Assembly (NCBI GenBank): GCA_030426765.1 | Contig: JAUHXV010000001.1 | Span: 124,001 to 188,000 of the forward strand | Direction: 5' to 3' | Origin: Bacteroidia bacterium | Lineage (GTDB): Bacteria > Bacteroidota > Bacteroidia > Chitinophagales > Saprospiraceae | Length of the DNA: 64,000 nucleotides | Shown here: one piece after another, positions 19,478 to 32,616 of the stretch | How the letters are laid out: each line of letters opens with the position of its first letter | How positions within the stretch are numbered: position 1 is the first letter of the stretch | Notes under the pieces: model-generated | The model's database searches: none | Seen by the model: only the letters and a program-made list of their open reading frames with translations | What the model was told of the DNA's origin: nothing | Program-made: the position numbers and the translations under genes

Positions 19478-20836
19478 ATGAATACCAGATCCCGTAAATT
19501 TTCCGCGTGGTTGAATACACCTATGGATCCGAGGATGCTCGGGTTGTACCGTATCGGATACGGACTGTTTATGGTGTACACGATGCTAAATTACTTCAGG
19601 ATTGAACTGGTGAAAAAGATGTTCGTGGAGCCTCAACTGAACTTTAGTTATGACTTTTTATACTGGATAAAACCATTGCCTGAACCTGCGATGAATGTAA
19701 TTCTGGGCATATTGGTGATCCTGGCAATATGTATCAGTCTTGGATTGTATTTTAAATGGGCATGTAGATTTTTTGCTGTTGGATATGCCTACATATTCCT
19801 GATAGACAAGAGTATTTATAATAATCACATCTACCTGTTTATCCTGCTCGCCATCCTGTTGAGTCTTACGGATGCCGATAATACGCTCTCCTTGAAAAGG
19901 ATAAAAGATAAGCATGCCCTGATTCCGAGATGGCAGACGCTGATCCTACAACTCCAGATTGTGATTGTATACTTCTATGGGGGAATAGCAAAGCTGACAA
20001 AGGATTGGCTCATGGACTGTCAACCGGTACGAACAGTGGTTGATCAGTTTCCGAATGAAGGTTTGTGGTCAATATTATTCAAAAATGATATCGTCATGTA
20101 CGTTATCAACTACGGTGGTATCCTGATAGACCTGGGTGCCCCCTTTTTTCTGTGGTATAAGCCTGTTAGACGTTGGGCGATAATTGCATTCATTGCATTT
20201 AACGCGTTAAACACCAGGATTTTTTCTGATATTGGTATATTCCCTTACGTCATGTTGGTCAGTTTGTTCCTTTTTTATGAAGTCAGTGAACTTCCCTGGT
20301 TACATAGACTATTGAGTCGTCTGGCACCCGATACATCAAGGCCAAAGACAGCAAAAATGAAATTAAAGATCAAACTGAGCGGAATGAAGATGTATGGGTT
20401 ATATGCCTATTTCATTTTCCAGCTTTTGTTCCCATTTAGAGGACACTTTTTACCCAATGATCTGGATTATACCACAATTGGAAATCGGTTTTCATGGCGC
20501 ATGAAGGTGGATACCAGAAAAGTAATCCGGGTAGAATACTCGATCGCTTCACCGGATTTTGCTTCTCATGTCCCTGTGGAGATTCAAACGTTTATCAATG
20601 ATATGCAGATCAAAAATCTCACTATGGATCCACGGTCAGTCCTGGACTTTGGTAAATTTATACACGAAGAGGCGATAAAGTACGATACCAGAAATCCTGC
20701 AGTATACGCCAACATAGAAGTAGCGTATAATGGTCGCTCACCTCAGTTATTTGTAGATCCGAAAGTAGATTTATCAAACCAAACGTATAGTCCTTTCAAA
20801 GCATTGGAATGGGTAGTTCCGATTGGTTCGAAGTAG
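19478..20836 (+). CDS. Vitamin-K-dependent gamma-carboxylase-like (HTTM) membrane protein
   Basis: 452 aa with several membrane helices in the first 300 residues, then a soluble C-terminal part. It matches the HTTM / vitamin-K gamma-glutamyl carboxylase family: MDPRMLGLYRIGYGL, YNNHIYLFILLAILLSLTD (His117) and VYFYGGIAKLTKDW (Lys172). By family alignment from memory, these residues fall at the positions of human GGCX His160 and the base Lys218, so the catalytic centre looks intact. The human enzyme gamma-carboxylates Glu residues; known bacterial homologues are mostly of unknown activity. It lies between the 2095-aa giant and two lipoprotein genes on the other strand. Whether any neighbour is a substrate is unknown. 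Confidence 0.8.
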   Translation: MNTRSRKFSAWLNTPMDPRMLGLYRIGYGLFMVYTMLNYFRIELVKKMFVEPQLNFSYDFLYWIKPLPEPAMNVILGILVILAICISLGLYFKWACRFFAVGYAYIFLIDKSIYNNHIYLFILLAILLSLTDADNTLSLKRIKDKHALIPRWQTLILQLQIVIVYFYGGIAKLTKDWLMDCQPVRTVVDQFPNEGLWSILFKNDIVMYVINYGGILIDLGAPFFLWYKPVRRWAIIAFIAFNALNTRIFSDIGIFPYVMLVSLFLFYEVSELPWLHRLLSRLAPDTSRPKTAKMKLKIKLSGMKMYGLYAYFIFQLLFPFRGHFLPNDLDYTTIGNRFSWRMKVDTRKVIRVEYSIASPDFASHVPVEIQTFINDMQIKNLTMDPRSVLDFGKFIHEEAIKYDTRNPAVYANIEVAYNGRSPQLFVDPKVDLSNQTYSPFKALEWVVPIGSK

Positions 20837-25451: not shown

Positions 25452-25622
25452 ATGAATAAACCTGTATGCTCTGGTTTACATGCATATGAATGCCCTCCGG
25501 TTCCCGGAAGGCAGGATCAGTTTCTGGCCTGCCCAGAATACCAACCCTCAATCCTGATGTCAACGGAAGATCACTTTCAGTTAAGCCCTTGGTTCATACA
25601 CCCTTTAACCCGGTTCCGATGA
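25452..25622 (+). CDS. Possible 56-aa upstream ORF overlapping the giant gene's start (ATGA)
   Basis: Open frame from ATG 25452 to TGA 25620-25622; the stop overlaps the ATG of the giant (25619) as ATGA, a classic arrangement for translational coupling. The start sits in the same context as the ATG of the 33001 paralogue (CGATTATGAA preceded by the shared TGCT/AGCA leader), and the first 27 bases agree at 19 positions (MNKPVCSGL against MKKLVLSGF). The product shows no signal peptide or known domain and is rich in Pro and Cys. It could be a regulatory leader peptide, or a relic of a former N terminus now out of frame with the giant. Existence as a protein is uncertain. Confidence 0.4.
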   Translation: MNKPVCSGLHAYECPPVPGRQDQFLACPEYQPSILMSTEDHFQLSPWFIHPLTRFR

Positions 25623-28600
25623 AAAGCATTTTTACCCGCCCGGTAAGTCCTTTCGATTTCTGTATAGCCCGGCGCAGTGTGATGTGCCTGCTTCTGGTAT
25701 CCATTGGATGTTTGCCTAACGCATATTCCTCAGACTGGGAGCTACAACATGCTGAAGGCCAACTCTCAACCTGGAACTTTTACGGAGCTACTAATGAAAC
25801 TTTTCAGGATGTAAAACTTTCCACAATGTCCGCAGCTATTAGCTGCAAGCCCGTAGTCAATGTATCGCTCAATCAGGAAGGATATGCAGTAGTCACCGGT
25901 TATATGATGGTCAATGGTCCCGAGTATCTACCTGATCAGTACACCGTTGATATCATGGGCCCTTTATCGGATACGGTGACCTGCGACAATATCGGGGAGG
26001 ATCTGATGGCCGTGGTCACAGAAATACCTACTGGAAACAGTTGTATGTCCATGATCAACGTTGAGGACAAACTTCCTCCGCAGTTTTCCTGCACCTCAGA
26101 TACCTTGCCTTGCAACACAGATATCCCGTCGATTGATTTTGAAAGTTATCTCGAATCCGTAACGGACAATTGCGATCCGGAACCAGATTACTGGTATTCA
26201 TTTGTCGTTCAGGTTTTGGGGTGTAATCCGGACAGATTTACCCACCAAATATTAGTGACCTGGACTGCCACAGATCTGTATGGAAATACAGGTACATGTG
26301 TGGATACCCTATACCTACAGAGACCGCTATTAGACGATATTGACTTTCCTCAGGATGTCACGATCGCCTGTGATGAAATGATCGATACCGACCCTTCCAA
26401 TACTGGTGTCCCGACCATTGAAGGAGAACCTATTGGGTTTTCATGTCAGCTGACCACTTTCCGAGGGGATGTGGTTATTCCCATGTGTATACCCACTTAT
26501 AAAATACGCCGAACGTGGACAGTTATGGACTGGTGCACGGGATCGTCAACATCAATGGTTCAGGAGATTCTTATAGTGGACAATAATAATCCAGTCATCA
26601 CATGCCCTCCGGACATCACACTGGATACAGATTTAGGTGATTGTACCACAGATTACACGCTGCCTCTTCCGGTTATGCTTTCAGATGCATGTGCCGACAG
26701 TAGTGATATAGAAGTAGTAATTACGATTGATGCCAATCCGCCCCTGCCGGGTTTTTTCTCTCCGGGGCAAATCGTCAATTTGGGTGCGGGCACTACCGTG
26801 ATCACGATGCGCGCAACTGATCCCTGCGGCAATTCGGCAACCTGCCAGTATACGATTACCATTGAAGATGAATCACCACCCGGAATAGTGTGTCCGGACG
26901 ATATTACCCTAGACTGCGATAGCAGCACAGATCCGGCAATGACGGGGTTGGCCACCGCCACAGATGATTGTGACAGCAATCCGATCGTGACCTATACGGA
27001 TGTTACCATCACGAATGAAGGATGTATTTCCGGTTATAAAGTCACACGAACCTGGACGGCTGAAGATGCGAGTGGCAACAAATCAAGTTGCATGCAGATG
27101 ATTCTGCTCACCGATCAATCCCCGCCTACGATTATCTGTCCGGAAGATATAACGATTGCTTGTGACGAAAGTACTGATCCTGTTGACACAGGATTTGCGT
27201 CAGCAACTGATGGCTGTGATGCCATGCCGGTGATTACCTTTTCGGATGTGACGGTGTCCGGACCATGCCCACACAGGTTTACTATCCAAAGAACCTGGAC
27301 CGCTATGGATGATTGCGGACATATGGGTTCCTGTGTGCAAGTCATTTCAATTGAGGACACAACCCCTCCCTTGATTTCATGCCCGTTCGATATGACTATT
27401 GAGTGTTCCTCACCGATCCCAACAGATATGGCTTCGGCTACGGATAACTGCAGCAGTTCATTGAATATTACCTACTCGGATATAGTGTGTGCCAATCCTG
27501 TGCTGGGATTTGCCGGGCCTTATGATATCGGTTTGTGGACCACGATCATACCGGCAGAAGGTGGCAGTGTCACAGTTATGGGAGACGATGAAGTCATGTT
27601 AACCAGTCCTGATGTAACGATCGGCTGCGATGATGCTTCCGTCCAGTTTAGTATTGACATTACCAGCAGCGGACATATTGTATTTGACTGGTACTTTGAA
27701 ACGCAGGATGTGGATGGTCCCTTCTATGATCCGTTCGGATATAATCTAAATGGAACATTTTTTCAGTTGACCGATGATGCCGGAGATGATGTACAACATG
27801 GAAGGACGTCCGTCGAGGTAACTGCAGGAGACGTTTTTGCTTTCGATCAAAGAGCCACAGATTGTATTGAAGGACCGGGAGCAACTTCTGTTGTAAATTT
27901 TCTGGCCTGTACGGAGGATATGGATGATCCGTGTAATGTACTGATCATCCGAACCCATACAGCCACAGATGAATGTGCAAATGAAGCTGCTTGTATTCAG
28001 ACCATACTACTGGTGGATACGACACCACCCGATATATCCTGTCCGGATGCAGTGACCATAGAATGTACAGAAAGCACACAACCTGTGAATACAGGAATGG
28101 CTTCCGTGACGGATAATTGCGATGCTTCACCAACATTGTCCTTTAGTGATGTTATCCTTGATATACCGTTATGTGCGCAGGCCTACGTGATCAATCGTAC
28201 GTGGATTACAGAAGATGATTGTGGGAATACAAATTTTTGTGTTCAGGTCATCACTGTTGAGGATTCAACTCCTCCGGACATGTCCTGTCCACCTGATGTT
28301 ACAATTGAGTGCACGGATTCAACACTTCCCGTGAGTACAGGTAATGCTTCCGCAACGGATTTGTGCGGGGATGTACCGGTGATTGAATACACTGATGTCA
28401 CATTAGCTGGTGGATGCCCACAGGAATACAGTATCATTCGAACATGGCTCGCAGCGGATGCGTGTGGTAATACATCGACCTGTGATCAACTGATAATTGT
28501 GGAGGACAGCACACCTCCTCTCATATCCTGTCCTTCTGATATCACACTGGAATGTGATGAAAGTACGTCACCGGACAATACAGGGATAGCTTCTGCCACT

Positions 28601-31528
28601 GATAATTGCGACGTATCTCCTGTCTTCACGTTTAGTGATGCGGTGACGGATGGTGTATGCCCTCAGGCCTTTACCATCACTCGCACCTGGATAGCAGCAG
28701 ATGCCTGTGGCAATAGCAATACATGTCAGCAAATTATTTCCATCGAAGACAATTTACCTCCGGATGTAACCTGTCCGATGGATGTGACGATTTCTTGTGC
28801 TGAAAGCAGTGACCCGACAGATTTAGGGATGGCCACGGCAACTGATCTATGTGATCCAAGTCCTGATGTCACTTTTTCAGATTTAATTGTACCCGGAAAT
28901 TGTAATGGAGAAGCGACGGTATTTCGGACATGGACTGCTATGGATGCTTGTGGTAATAGTAGCACATGCGTACAACAGATTTCAATCACAGATGATACGC
29001 CTCCTGTATTTACCTCCTGTCCTGCGGATGTCACGATAGAATGTGGTGAAAGTACGTTGCCTGATGACACAGGAATCGCTACTGCAACAGACCTCTGCGA
29101 TGTGTCAGTTGAGATCACGTATTTGGATGTAATCCTTGCCGGCATGTGTCCGCAGGAATTTACGATCAATAGAGTCTGGATAGCCACGGATGATTGTGGA
29201 AATAGTACTTCCTGCCAGCAAGTAATTTCAGTAGAGGATAATACCCCACCTAATATTCTGTGCCCTGTGGATATCACAATCGCTTGCACGGAAAGTACCG
29301 AACCCGGAAATACGGGTTTGGCTTCAGCAACTGATGCCTGTGATGCAAATCCTTTAGTCACCTACAATGATGTTGTGGTGGGTGGTGGATGTCCGGGAGA
29401 AGGTGGAATCATGCGGACCTGGACAGCAACGGATGCCTGTGGCAATACGAGTACCTGTTTGCAAATCATATCTGTTGATGACGATACACCTCCAGTGATC
29501 ACAGACTGTCCGCCTGATCTGACCATTGAATGTGACGATGATACGCTTCCTGTATCAACAGGATTTGCTTCTGCTACGGATGATTGCGATTCAGCACCTG
29601 TCATTACCTACAGCGATTCTATTGCTGATGGTGACTGTCCGCAGGACTATACCATCACAAGGATATGGACGGCCATGGATGCGTGTGGCAACAGTAGTAC
29701 ATGTGCACAGATGATTTCGGTGGAGGATAATACACTTCCCGTGATTACGTTTTGTCCCCCTGATGTGACAATCAGTTGTGAAGAGAGCACCGCCCCAGGC
29801 AATACAGGTACCGCTTCTGCAACAGACAACTGTTCAGCAGATGTAACTATCACTTTTGATGATTCAATTTCAGATGGCGCATGTCCGCAGGAGATTACCC
29901 TTACGAGAGTTTGGATAGCTACTGACGATTGCGGAAATTTCTCGACATGTGTTCAGATGATTACGACTGAAGATACGTCTCCTCCTTTGATAACATGTCC
30001 GGCTCACATCACTGTAGCGTGTGATGAAAGTATACTTCCAGATAATACAGGAATGGCAGGCGCTACTGATAATTGTGATCCTGTTCCAGTTGTAACGTAT
30101 AATGATGTCACTTTAGGATCACAGTTTTGCGCAGAGCAATCCACTATCCTTCGAACCTGGACGATTACGGATGCATGTGGAAACGGAACAAATTGTATTC
30201 AGATCATTACGATCATAGATATTACGCCACCTCAGTTTACTCCATGTCCGGCGGACATTACAATAGAATGTGGTGAAGATCCATCACCTGAAAATATAGG
30301 TTTTGCAAGTGCATCCGACAATTGTGATAGTGCTCCTGTGATTACCTACAGTGACATCACTACAGAAGGGACATGTGGATCAAATTATTCGGTCACCCGC
30401 ACATGGACAGCTACGGATGCTTGCGGGAATGCAGCCACCTGTGTACAGATGATTTTTGTTGAGGACAACACGCCTCCGGTTTGCTCTGCACAGGATATTA
30501 CAATTACTGAAATTCTTGATCCGGAAACGGGTGTCATATATATAACAGCAGAGATGATTGACGATGGATCGTTTGATGCCTGTGGCGGACCGGTGACCCT
30601 TGAGGTCATTCCGGATTCACTTTTGTGTGAAGATGAGGGACCCAATGAAGTTACCCTGGTTGTGACCGACGAGTGTGGAAACAGTTCTACCTGTACTGCC
30701 ATTGTCACGATTGACTGTATTGATCCGTGCGTGAATATTATGGGATGGGTATACCTGGCTGGTGCAGCAACGGATCCCACAGGGCTACCGGATACATATA
30801 CTGTTCCGATGCGTACTGATTTAAATGACCTGCATGTTTTGCCGGGACAATCGTATTTCGATCCGTTTTTTGGTGTAAAGTATACACCACCCGGACAACC
30901 TTATTCCGGTGCACCATGGTTTTATCCCGGCATGGAGGGTGACATGTTCGATTCGGGTGGAGATCCGATGATGGGGGATGCCGGATATCCTCCAACGGTT
31001 GTGGACTGGGTACTTGTCAGCCTGAGAGAAGATTCTGCAGGTACAGACGGCCCCGTTTGTATGGCAGCAGCTTTGGTACACAACGACGGAGCCATTGAGT
31101 TTGTAGAAGAATTTGACTGTTGTAATCTGGATCTGGAAGCATCGTATTTTCTGGTGGTTGAACATCGCAACCATCTGATCGTCATGTCCGATGATTCGTT
31201 GCCGATCGATTTGAACAACAGTACGATCACCTACGATTTTAGAATTCAGCAAAGTTACCTGGATGATCCCTTCATGTTTGGGGCTTCAGCCCAGTTAGAG
31301 ATTCTTCCCGGCATATATGCGATGCTGGCAGCAAATGGAGAGCAGTCTTCATCCGATAACGCGGATACGGATATCAATATCAGTGATCGGGTAGCATGGC
31401 AGGATGATAACAGTAGTGTAGGAGAATACCGGGTGGGGGATTACAACCTCAATGGAGATACAAACTTTAATGACCGTATTACCTGGGAGTTTTTCAATGA
31501 CAACTTCACTAGCGTACCGAGAGATTGA
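25619..31528 (+). CDS. Giant secreted HYR-repeat protein lacking a T9SS sorting domain (1969 aa)
   Basis: Start ATG 25619 gives a plausible signal peptide (FTRPVSPFDFCIARRSV, then MCLLLVSIGCLPNAYSS); a longer frame from 25490 adds a non-signal N terminus. An N-terminal module (VNVSLNQEGYAVVTG... GNSCMSMINVEDKLPP) and a YKIRRTWTVMDWC module precede an array of about 13 HYR domains (about residues 420-1620), each with CP..(I/V)TI.C, NC, RTWTA.DACGN.S.C and DNTPP. The fourth HYR carries an inserted beta domain (about 626-771). The C-terminal module (1703-1969) ends in dockerin-like loops (NADTDINISDRVAWQ; GDYNLNGDTNFNDRITWEF) and stops at SVPRD. No YQNxPNPF-type T9SS domain is present, unlike the paralogues. 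The next gene, 80 bp away, encodes a cohesin-like protein that has one. Confidence 0.87.
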   Translation: MKSIFTRPVSPFDFCIARRSVMCLLLVSIGCLPNAYSSDWELQHAEGQLSTWNFYGATNETFQDVKLSTMSAAISCKPVVNVSLNQEGYAVVTGYMMVNGPEYLPDQYTVDIMGPLSDTVTCDNIGEDLMAVVTEIPTGNSCMSMINVEDKLPPQFSCTSDTLPCNTDIPSIDFESYLESVTDNCDPEPDYWYSFVVQVLGCNPDRFTHQILVTWTATDLYGNTGTCVDTLYLQRPLLDDIDFPQDVTIACDEMIDTDPSNTGVPTIEGEPIGFSCQLTTFRGDVVIPMCIPTYKIRRTWTVMDWCTGSSTSMVQEILIVDNNNPVITCPPDITLDTDLGDCTTDYTLPLPVMLSDACADSSDIEVVITIDANPPLPGFFSPGQIVNLGAGTTVITMRATDPCGNSATCQYTITIEDESPPGIVCPDDITLDCDSSTDPAMTGLATATDDCDSNPIVTYTDVTITNEGCISGYKVTRTWTAEDASGNKSSCMQMILLTDQSPPTIICPEDITIACDESTDPVDTGFASATDGCDAMPVITFSDVTVSGPCPHRFTIQRTWTAMDDCGHMGSCVQVISIEDTTPPLISCPFDMTIECSSPIPTDMASATDNCSSSLNITYSDIVCANPVLGFAGPYDIGLWTTIIPAEGGSVTVMGDDEVMLTSPDVTIGCDDASVQFSIDITSSGHIVFDWYFETQDVDGPFYDPFGYNLNGTFFQLTDDAGDDVQHGRTSVEVTAGDVFAFDQRATDCIEGPGATSVVNFLACTEDMDDPCNVLIIRTHTATDECANEAACIQTILLVDTTPPDISCPDAVTIECTESTQPVNTGMASVTDNCDASPTLSFSDVILDIPLCAQAYVINRTWITEDDCGNTNFCVQVITVEDSTPPDMSCPPDVTIECTDSTLPVSTGNASATDLCGDVPVIEYTDVTLAGGCPQEYSIIRTWLAADACGNTSTCDQLIIVEDSTPPLISCPSDITLECDESTSPDNTGIASATDNCDVSPVFTFSDAVTDGVCPQAFTITRTWIAADACGNSNTCQQIISIEDNLPPDVTCPMDVTISCAESSDPTDLGMATATDLCDPSPDVTFSDLIVPGNCNGEATVFRTWTAMDACGNSSTCVQQISITDDTPPVFTSCPADVTIECGESTLPDDTGIATATDLCDVSVEITYLDVILAGMCPQEFTINRVWIATDDCGNSTSCQQVISVEDNTPPNILCPVDITIACTESTEPGNTGLASATDACDANPLVTYNDVVVGGGCPGEGGIMRTWTATDACGNTSTCLQIISVDDDTPPVITDCPPDLTIECDDDTLPVSTGFASATDDCDSAPVITYSDSIADGDCPQDYTITRIWTAMDACGNSSTCAQMISVEDNTLPVITFCPPDVTISCEESTAPGNTGTASATDNCSADVTITFDDSISDGACPQEITLTRVWIATDDCGNFSTCVQMITTEDTSPPLITCPAHITVACDESILPDNTGMAGATDNCDPVPVVTYNDVTLGSQFCAEQSTILRTWTITDACGNGTNCIQIITIIDITPPQFTPCPADITIECGEDPSPENIGFASASDNCDSAPVITYSDITTEGTCGSNYSVTRTWTATDACGNAATCVQMIFVEDNTPPVCSAQDITITEILDPETGVIYITAEMIDDGSFDACGGPVTLEVIPDSLLCEDEGPNEVTLVVTDECGNSSTCTAIVTIDCIDPCVNIMGWVYLAGAATDPTGLPDTYTVPMRTDLNDLHVLPGQSYFDPFFGVKYTPPGQPYSGAPWFYPGMEGDMFDSGGDPMMGDAGYPPTVVDWVLVSLREDSAGTDGPVCMAAALVHNDGAIEFVEEFDCCNLDLEASYFLVVEHRNHLIVMSDDSLPIDLNNSTITYDFRIQQSYLDDPFMFGASAQLEILPGIYAMLAANGEQSSSDNADTDINISDRVAWQDDNSSVGEYRVGDYNLNGDTNFNDRITWEFFNDNFTSVPRD
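27494..27930 (+). other. Inserted domain within HYR 4 of the 1969-aa protein
   Basis: A stretch of about 145 residues beginning NPVLGFAGPYDIGLW, with VFDWYFETQDVDGP and FGYNLNGTFFQLTDD, interrupts an HYR domain between its TYSDIVC strand and its RTHTATDECAN strand. The same insertion occurs at the same place in the 2946-aa protein (39024-39468). Probably a beta-sandwich ligand-binding or structural domain; family not named. Confidence 0.65.
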
Positions 31529-31608
31529 TCATTGATCTTCGTTGATCTAACAGGATATGCCAAATAAGTGGTTGTGATAAAAGAGAATTGCATTTAAATT
31601 TTTCGAAC

Positions 31609-32616
31609 ATGAAACAAGTTGTTTGGTTCACACGCATGGTTCACGTCATGATACTTTTATGTGGAATAGCATGCACCTCTTTAGCAGGGCAGGAGAGACC
31701 CCTGGTTGAAATCCGGTTTACTAATCCGGTGTATGATGTCAACTCGCGAATGTACTCAGTCGATGCAGAGATGATGTCGCTGAATGCAGATGAGGAGTTT
31801 TTCGGGATGAACCTGCGTTTTTTTTATGACGCAACGTTCCTGCAGTTTAAAGCGATTGATCAGGTACATCAGGGGTATGGGTTTTTAGGCACGCCGCCTA
31901 AGGCCGTGGTCGGAGGAGCGACCAGCGGATCTGTTCTTTTTGATTTTGACAACAAAGCAGGTTATATCAATAGTACAGTGATTCTGACCAATGCGCTTTA
32001 TCCACTTGCCTTGCCTAAGAAGGAGTGGGTGAAGGCTTTCAGGGTCAAGTTTTTTGTTCCGCTTTCAGTGCTCGCCAGCCCAGCTTTCTGTCCCAGTATT
32101 ATCTGGGATAAGGAATTCGATCCAGCCATGGGAGGTTTTCTGCAGGGCAGTGAAGGTGTGTTGATCGCGGTCGTGGAGAAGGAAGACGAGTCAGGTGCTG
32201 AGGCGCTTGTCGCAGACACATATGGACATCCGTTCAATTGGGAATATTATGATATGCAAGGCCTTCCTCATGGGCAAATTGTATCCGAAACATGTATTCC
32301 GATCAACAATACGATCACGGAGGAACCGGATAAGTCGCCTGCTGGTGGGTATGATATTGCACAGAATACGCCCAACCCATTTTCCGGGGAAACAACGATA
32401 ACGTTTACGCTCCCTAAGATGGAGTATGCAGCGCTCATCCTGTATGATGCAGAGGGGACGATCCGGGAGACCATTGAAGGGCAGTTTAATGCCGGTGAGA
32501 ATAAGGTCCTCCTCAGAATGAAAAGCTGGATGCTGGATTCCGGAGTGATCTATTACAGGTTGCAAACAGATACATACCGATCCGGGGCGATCTCAATGGT
32601 CTGTATTAGGGCCTGA
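31609..32616 (+). CDS. Cohesin-like secreted protein with T9SS sorting domain (335 aa)
   Basis: Start ATG 31609 (MKQVVWFTRMVHVMILLCGIA, cleavage near LAGQ); a TTG seven codons upstream is unlikely. Residues about 24-165 form a beta-rich domain with a cohesin-like pattern: VEIRFTNPVYDVNSRMYSVD, FFGMNLRFFYDATFLQFKAI, SGSVLFDFDNKAGYINST, WVKAFRVKFFV. The T9SS type-A sorting domain is about 245-335 (YDIAQNTPNPFSGETTITFTL, then YYRLQTDTYRS and a final CIRA). It is 80 bp downstream of, and in line with, the 1969-aa giant that lacks such a domain. I infer that it may anchor the giant at the surface; the cohesin assignment rests on pattern, not on a search. Confidence 0.72.
   Translation: MKQVVWFTRMVHVMILLCGIACTSLAGQERPLVEIRFTNPVYDVNSRMYSVDAEMMSLNADEEFFGMNLRFFYDATFLQFKAIDQVHQGYGFLGTPPKAVVGGATSGSVLFDFDNKAGYINSTVILTNALYPLALPKKEWVKAFRVKFFVPLSVLASPAFCPSIIWDKEFDPAMGGFLQGSEGVLIAVVEKEDESGAEALVADTYGHPFNWEYYDMQGLPHGQIVSETCIPINNTITEEPDKSPAGGYDIAQNTPNPFSGETTITFTLPKMEYAALILYDAEGTIRETIEGQFNAGENKVLLRMKSWMLDSGVIYYRLQTDTYRSGAISMVCIRA

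Follow-up and report, generated by a model that had tools for sequence, protein, structure and literature searches.

The closest described counterparts of the locus analysed here are the one-cohesin anchoring scaffoldins of Clostridium thermocellum, OlpA, OlpC and SdbA, small surface-sorted proteins whose cohesin holds a dockerin-tailed client; Gram-positive cellulosomes use SLH or sortase anchors. In the X-module-dockerin (XDoc) dyads of types II and III, a beta module lies right before the dockerin at the C terminus of a large protein. The nearest published prediction that we found is the cellulosome-like complex of Ca. Stygibacter (Cloacimonadota), in which a predicted scaffoldin combines tandem cohesins with a conserved C-terminal domain (CTD) for surface attachment, and the secreted enzymes are dockerin-tailed (PMC8542988). 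Cohesins and dockerins that are not part of cellulosomes have been described in archaea and bacteria, including ANME archaea, where the modules occur outside cellulose degradation and are recognised by standard models (discussed in PMC9012536). Bacteroidetes-affiliated genomes have been stated to lack cohesins and dockerins (PMC5831590), which is the result to be expected from standard models for most genomes considered below.

The window, a stretch of 64,000 nucleotides from a Saprospiraceae bacterium (contig JAUHXV010000001.1), contains a gene for a giant HYR protein without a CTD, followed by a gene for a small partner. We consider, with a probability of roughly 0.7, that these two genes encode a cohesin-dockerin-like surface tether for the giant. 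The tether would probably belong to a non-cellulosomal anchoring system coupled to type IX secretion (T9SS), and no description of this module-cohesin pair was found in the literature searched. As in the anchoring scaffoldins, a small surface-sorted protein would hold a dockerin-tailed client; however, the anchors are Gram-negative (T9SS, type B or IPTL-like), giant HYR and DUF11-type proteins take the place of cellulases as clients, one client gene adjoins one anchor gene, and there is no Pfam Cohesin sequence match. A cellulosomal client, an enzyme that degrades plant polysaccharides and bears a dockerin for its scaffoldin, is also not what Pfam indicates for the giant of the window, which has HYR_4C repeats and no enzyme domain. 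The likeness to XDoc dyads comes from domain order, whereas the beta part here has no convincing match in Pfam, NCBIfam or PDB sequences. Ca. Stygibacter, which shares cohesins with CTD anchoring, belongs to another phylum and has a multi-enzyme scaffold visible to standard domain models, whereas the tethers described here are often one-to-one and combine a giant with a divergent cohesin and module. The ANME modules likewise differ from the window cohesin in being recognised by such models. The features of the locus are as follows.

25619..31528, + strand: giant HYR protein without CTD, open reading frame of 1969 aa (2012 aa if the start is 25490), with HYR_4C and no T9SS sorting family
25619..25729, + strand: putative signal peptide of the giant (MKSIFTRP...CLLLVSIGCLPNAYS), likely, as read from the sequence
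30959..31525, + strand: C-terminal module of about 185 aa, a beta part (DWVLVSLR..EHRNHL) and a dockerin-like tail, defined by profile A1
31328..31525, + strand: dockerin-like tail of 66 aa with two Asp/Asn loops, defined by profile A5, with PDB and Dockerin_1 matches in the family
31439..31474, + strand: second Ca2+-loop-like motif, DYNLNGDTNFND, a full fit to the dockerin loop D-x-N-x-[ND]-G-x-x-N-x-x-D
31529..31608, + strand: intergenic gap of 80 bp, no intrinsic terminator found
31609..32616, + strand: small anchor protein of 335 aa (open reading frame and AF2 model), with signal peptide, predicted cohesin-fold domain and T9SS tail
31699..32307, + strand: predicted cohesin-fold domain, residues 31-233 (AF2 pLDDT mostly >85; VIA-align)
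32368..32616, + strand: sorting domain of T9SS type A (residues 254-335), scoring weakly (TIGR04183 16.4 bits, cut-off 23)

The giant HYR protein and its C-terminal module

The open reading frame of the giant spans 25490..31528 (+), its first ATG giving 2012 aa and the ATG at 25619 giving 1969 aa; the last sense codon ends at 31525 and the stop codon at 31528. HYR_4C matched it in five stretches (Pfam, 1.1e-33). No T9SS domain was found in its last 242 aa at E <= 1 (Pfam, NCBIfam) or in the whole 1969-aa protein at E <= 0.1 (NCBIfam) and E <= 0.01 (Pfam), and it therefore has no type A, B or C C-terminal sorting domain that would mark it as a T9SS substrate in these databases. The genome does encode a T9SS (PorU, 1122.8 bits). 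Among the other HYR-type proteins of the window, 6681 and 37053 have a clear T9SS domain (TIGR04183, 32.6 and 35.2 bits), 33001 and 46486 score over the cut-off of 23 (25.3 and 24.2 bits), and 12925 lies slightly under the Pfam cut-off (25.9 against 27). With this small reservation about 12925, the profile searches agree with the first-pass annotation that the giant is the only large HYR family member in the window to lack a T9SS CTD. Directly after an HYR giant, the window also encodes (19478-20836, +) an HTTM protein of 452 aa whose lumenal domain is of the vitamin K-dependent gamma-carboxylase kind (PF05090, 2.3e-66; PF22777, 3e-31).

Profile A1, built from relatives of the last 189 aa of the giant, defines a module family whose position was C-terminal in all 126 distinct relatives. 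The ending near ..VPR is conserved in many members, VP falling within the last seven residues in 69/126. A PDB sequence search with the whole-module profile returned nothing, NCBIfam holds no model of the module, and for the beta part no convincing match emerged from Pfam, NCBIfam or PDB sequences. Dockerins have two loop-helix repeats of about 20 residues that bind Ca2+. In the tail, the first loop has an insert and the second fits the dockerin pattern completely; D20, D38 and D49 are invariant in the alignment of profile A5. Cellulosomal dockerins accounted for 13 of the 19 PDB matches of this profile at E <= 10, each of them marginal singly. Dockerin_1 (PF00404) did not match the window copy of the module, but it matched 3/24 modules (best 5.7e-6) and 2/43 tails (best 1.2e-7) of the family, suggesting that the tail is remotely related to dockerins. 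The earlier claim that the giant ends in a dockerin-like module is thus borne out at the level of the family, the tail forming a true family with Dockerin_1 matches in other members; the unit, however, is the module of about 185 aa and not the GDYNLNGDTNFNDR motif alone.

The strictly C-terminal position, the conserved ending and the presence of the module on proteins without a CTD would also suit a new export or sorting signal read by the secretion machinery, with the cohesin-fold partner acting as an export factor or being an unrelated neighbour. The dockerin relationship of the tail argues against this, as does the predicted fold of the neighbour described next.

The small partner and its predicted cohesin fold

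As the first-pass annotation had it, the small gene lies 80 bp downstream on the same strand and encodes 335 aa, in agreement with the open reading frame coordinates. Because no terminator-like site is present in the 80-bp gap, a single transcript for both genes would be consistent with the sequence. When the AF2 model of the small protein (residues 28-236) was compared with known structures by VIA-align, rows 1-43 consisted entirely of cohesins, a family with a nine-stranded beta-sandwich (jelly roll), and types I, II and III were represented; the best match was 6kgf (Z 12.0, rmsd 3.0, 139 residues aligned), followed by matches such as 4ums (11.6), OlpC (4dh2, 11.5), CipA (1aoh, 11.2) and OlpA (3ul4, 11.0), so that the cohesins of two anchoring scaffoldins are among those matched by the predicted fold. 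The rows after 43 were unrelated structures matching the C-terminal tail of the small protein. In another lineage, the partner at locus L115, 38% identical, was also predicted to have a cohesin fold (best Z 11.2). The cohesin-like beta domain proposed earlier therefore stands as a predicted cohesin, and not as some unrelated fold, although a profile search could not recover it: Pfam Cohesin (PF00963) gave no match at E 0.1 to the window protein and 25 relatives, and a PDB sequence search with the cohesin profile A4 gave none either. Because Pfam Cohesin is without a match, we describe the domain as a divergent cohesin, the predicted fold being the link.

The T9SS tail of the small protein scores 16.4 bits with TIGR04183 (cut-off 23), and that of the paralogue on contig C105 of the same genome scores 22.2 bits; the family profile matches the T9SS tails of PDB entries 8glk_D and 5jvk_A. 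The T9SS domain of this protein is a putative one: it lies at the C terminus and the genome encodes PorU, but its own score remains under the cut-off.

The giant and its partner had been viewed as the split version of a cassette that the window paralogues carry on one chain, dockerin, cohesin and CTD. The paralogues share the window and a similar general order of parts, and Pfam gives Dockerin_1 and weak Cohesin matches in them, as a recent split of the neighbouring cassette would predict. However, profiles of the paralogue dockerin and cohesin did not match the module and the cohesin of the small protein (hhalign probability <1%, over a short stretch only), and the split pair exists as a family of its own in many genera, so we regard a recent split as highly improbable. 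Judged by these profiles, the one-chain cassette is a different subfamily, and 'split version' can therefore be used as a functional analogy, with no origin demonstrated.

Module and cohesin genes across genomes

We searched 299 genomes of the order, with targeted fetching and a named survey in addition. The window genome has two more module-cohesin pairs (on C105 and C92), and 35 cases of a module gene followed by a cohesin gene were found in Saprospiraceae, Flavobacteriia, Cytophagales and Bacteroidales bins. The same arrangement occurs in Neolewinella lacunae, Flavilitoribacter nigricans, Algibacter marinivivus, Larkinella soli, Arcicella aurantiaca and many uncultured bins. A same-strand cohesin gene lay downstream of the module gene in 34/115 cases and upstream in 2/59 (Fisher p = 1.9e-5, a count that takes neighbours as independent though genomes contribute several each, at loci chosen for containing modules). 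Among the modules in the matches listed within genomes, with G151 set aside, 14 of 29 had a cohesin start within the next 450 bp, against 0.009 expected from random placement. Over the 35 pairs, the distance matrices of modules and cohesins were correlated (r = 0.69, a value reached by 0/20000 permutations), as is also expected from the shared descent of adjacent genes.

The two parts do not always travel together. Modules and cohesins are both present and unlinked in three genomes (G152, G180, G225); a genome of the genus of the window (G261) has three cohesins and no modules; cohesin genes without modules occur on contigs C147 and C86 of the window genome; and many module genes have no neighbouring cohesin gene. 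The expected conservation of the pairing thus holds for the majority of genomes in which the window module has close relatives, with the parts found apart in the three genomes named and with the module-free G261 as an exception.

These stand-alone cohesins would suit another account, in which the two genes merely encode co-transcribed surface proteins and the cohesin-fold domain binds something else, such as a glycan or another adhesin, rather than the giant. Cohesin-like folds outside cohesin-dockerin pairs, of which PMC6030884 appears to give an example, point the same way. A read-through fold of L115, with module and partner in one frame across the stop codon, predicted no interface, but with the module poorly folded (pTM 0.47; module pLDDT mostly 36-80) it speaks neither for nor against contact. 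On the other hand, gene order is conserved although the paired cohesins are often just 14-60% identical, and partners can exchange their anchor domain and retain the cohesin. Moreover, two module subtypes (45-49% identical) coexist in a single Flavilitoribacter genome, each beside its own cohesin subtype (14-20% identical), the odd module standing beside the odd cohesin as matched subtypes would. Given these observations, we judge mere co-transcription to be quite improbable, less probable than the reading of the module as a sorting signal, and retain the tether.

Several other arrangements were seen in the survey. In one Saprospiraceae clade (L084, L093, L146, L165), a module gene is followed by a gene of about 610 aa from a shared family with a conserved C terminus, which is not a cohesin. 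In G174, G087, G148 and G183 (L224, L229, L230, L234, L238), the beta part precedes another kind of tail, a two-fold repeat that mostly ends in QLP or QLPQ and has no recognisable CTD, and there was no cohesin-profile match in these four genomes. The QLP-type tail is possibly a second tethering or sorting tail. The four genomes, whose sequences were inspected among those with weak module matches and no cohesin, were considered as counter-examples to the pairing of the same module and rejected because the tail differs. Contigs at L141, L114 and L144, which are labelled Wenzhouxiangella, Thermoanaerobaculia and Hydrogenedentota, have genes of Bacteroidota type and are probably misbinned.

Anchors, chains and the proposed tether

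In adjacent partners, the cohesin begins within about 60 residues of the N terminus, directly after the signal peptide. What follows it varies while the cohesin is kept: a type A sorting domain (L115, L006), a type B domain (TIGR04131, CHU_C; L117, L174) or an IPTL-CTERM-like membrane tail that contains IPLS-W and basic residues (L119, L129, L141). The L174 cluster ends with a PorP/SprF gene. We considered that IPLS-W tails might occur where the T9SS is missing, and rejected this idea, as PorU was found in 3/4 such genomes (the fourth, L141, lies in an apparently misbinned MAG); an exosortase was present in 3/4 genomes with IPLS-W tails against 2/7 others, with no clear correlation.

Other proteins carry a cohesin at the N terminus and a module at the C terminus (L075, L078, L113, L174). 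In Arcicella, genes for proteins of 575+ aa, 2166 aa and finally 307 aa with an anchor stand in a head-to-tail line, with similar lines in Neolewinella and at L078. Tandem cohesins were also found, three in one protein on G152:C58, and three and two on G159:C48, and a Flavilitoribacter protein at L124 joins three tandem cohesins to a module of another subtype than that of its upstream neighbour. In this locus (L124 1-13004, Flavilitoribacter nigricans), a client, an anchor, the three-cohesin adaptor (whose module is of the other subtype) and the following cohesin protein are encoded consecutively. Read from their domain architectures, such clients, adaptors and anchors would together be the parts list of a scaffold system. 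The two-part tether originally proposed therefore describes a piece of a wider system that also includes chains, scaffolds of tandem cohesins and anchors of other types.

The proportions of the two parts bear again on whether the module could be an export signal. Four genomes of family f13 (G012, G077, G117, G151) each have from 36 to >85 C-terminal modules and 3-13 cohesins, an excess that a signal read by the secretion machinery would explain. In cellulosomes, however, many dockerins per few cohesins are the rule, and proteins with tandem cohesins or with both cohesin and module suit binding modules, not a cleavable signal. We therefore consider a sorting signal unlikely, and the tether remains the preferred reading.

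In the proposed mechanism, the giant gene and the small gene would act together as a surface tether: the dockerin-like module at the C terminus of the giant, probably with Ca2+ in both of its loops, would be held by the N-terminal cohesin-fold domain of the small protein, and the giant HYR adhesin would be displayed although it carries no sorting signal itself. It might join its partner in the periplasm and be exported as the partner's cargo, or leave the cell by some other route. The binding, its Ca2+ dependence, the surface display and the exit route, whether as partner-bound cargo or otherwise, are what we infer from the modules described above. The T9SS is thought to pull its substrates out CTD first, complexed with PorV (PMC10994853), and export of a CTD-less giant as bound cargo is put forward only as a proposal. 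Tentatively, and with rather more doubt than conviction, we also envisage that giants are joined head to tail, the C-terminal module of one entering the N-terminal cohesin of the next, the last being held by an anchor of T9SS or IPTL-like type; such chains might branch at tandem-cohesin proteins and form surface filaments or lattices, and CTD-less giants may leave as cargo of the anchored partner.

Since recognition of T9SS substrates depends on the C-terminal domain, large surface proteins without a CTD are missed or left unexplained. If true, a conserved cohesin-dockerin-like anchoring would explain how CTD-less giants stay on the surface, and it raises the question of whether a protein can pass through the T9SS when attached to a partner that carries the signal. 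The system offers defined module pairs, with natural subtypes in one genome, that are testable in vitro. The recurrent pairing suggests that Bacteroidota build surface assemblies with a cellulosome-like snap-together logic, which would thereby extend to the adhesin-like proteins of environmental members of the phylum.
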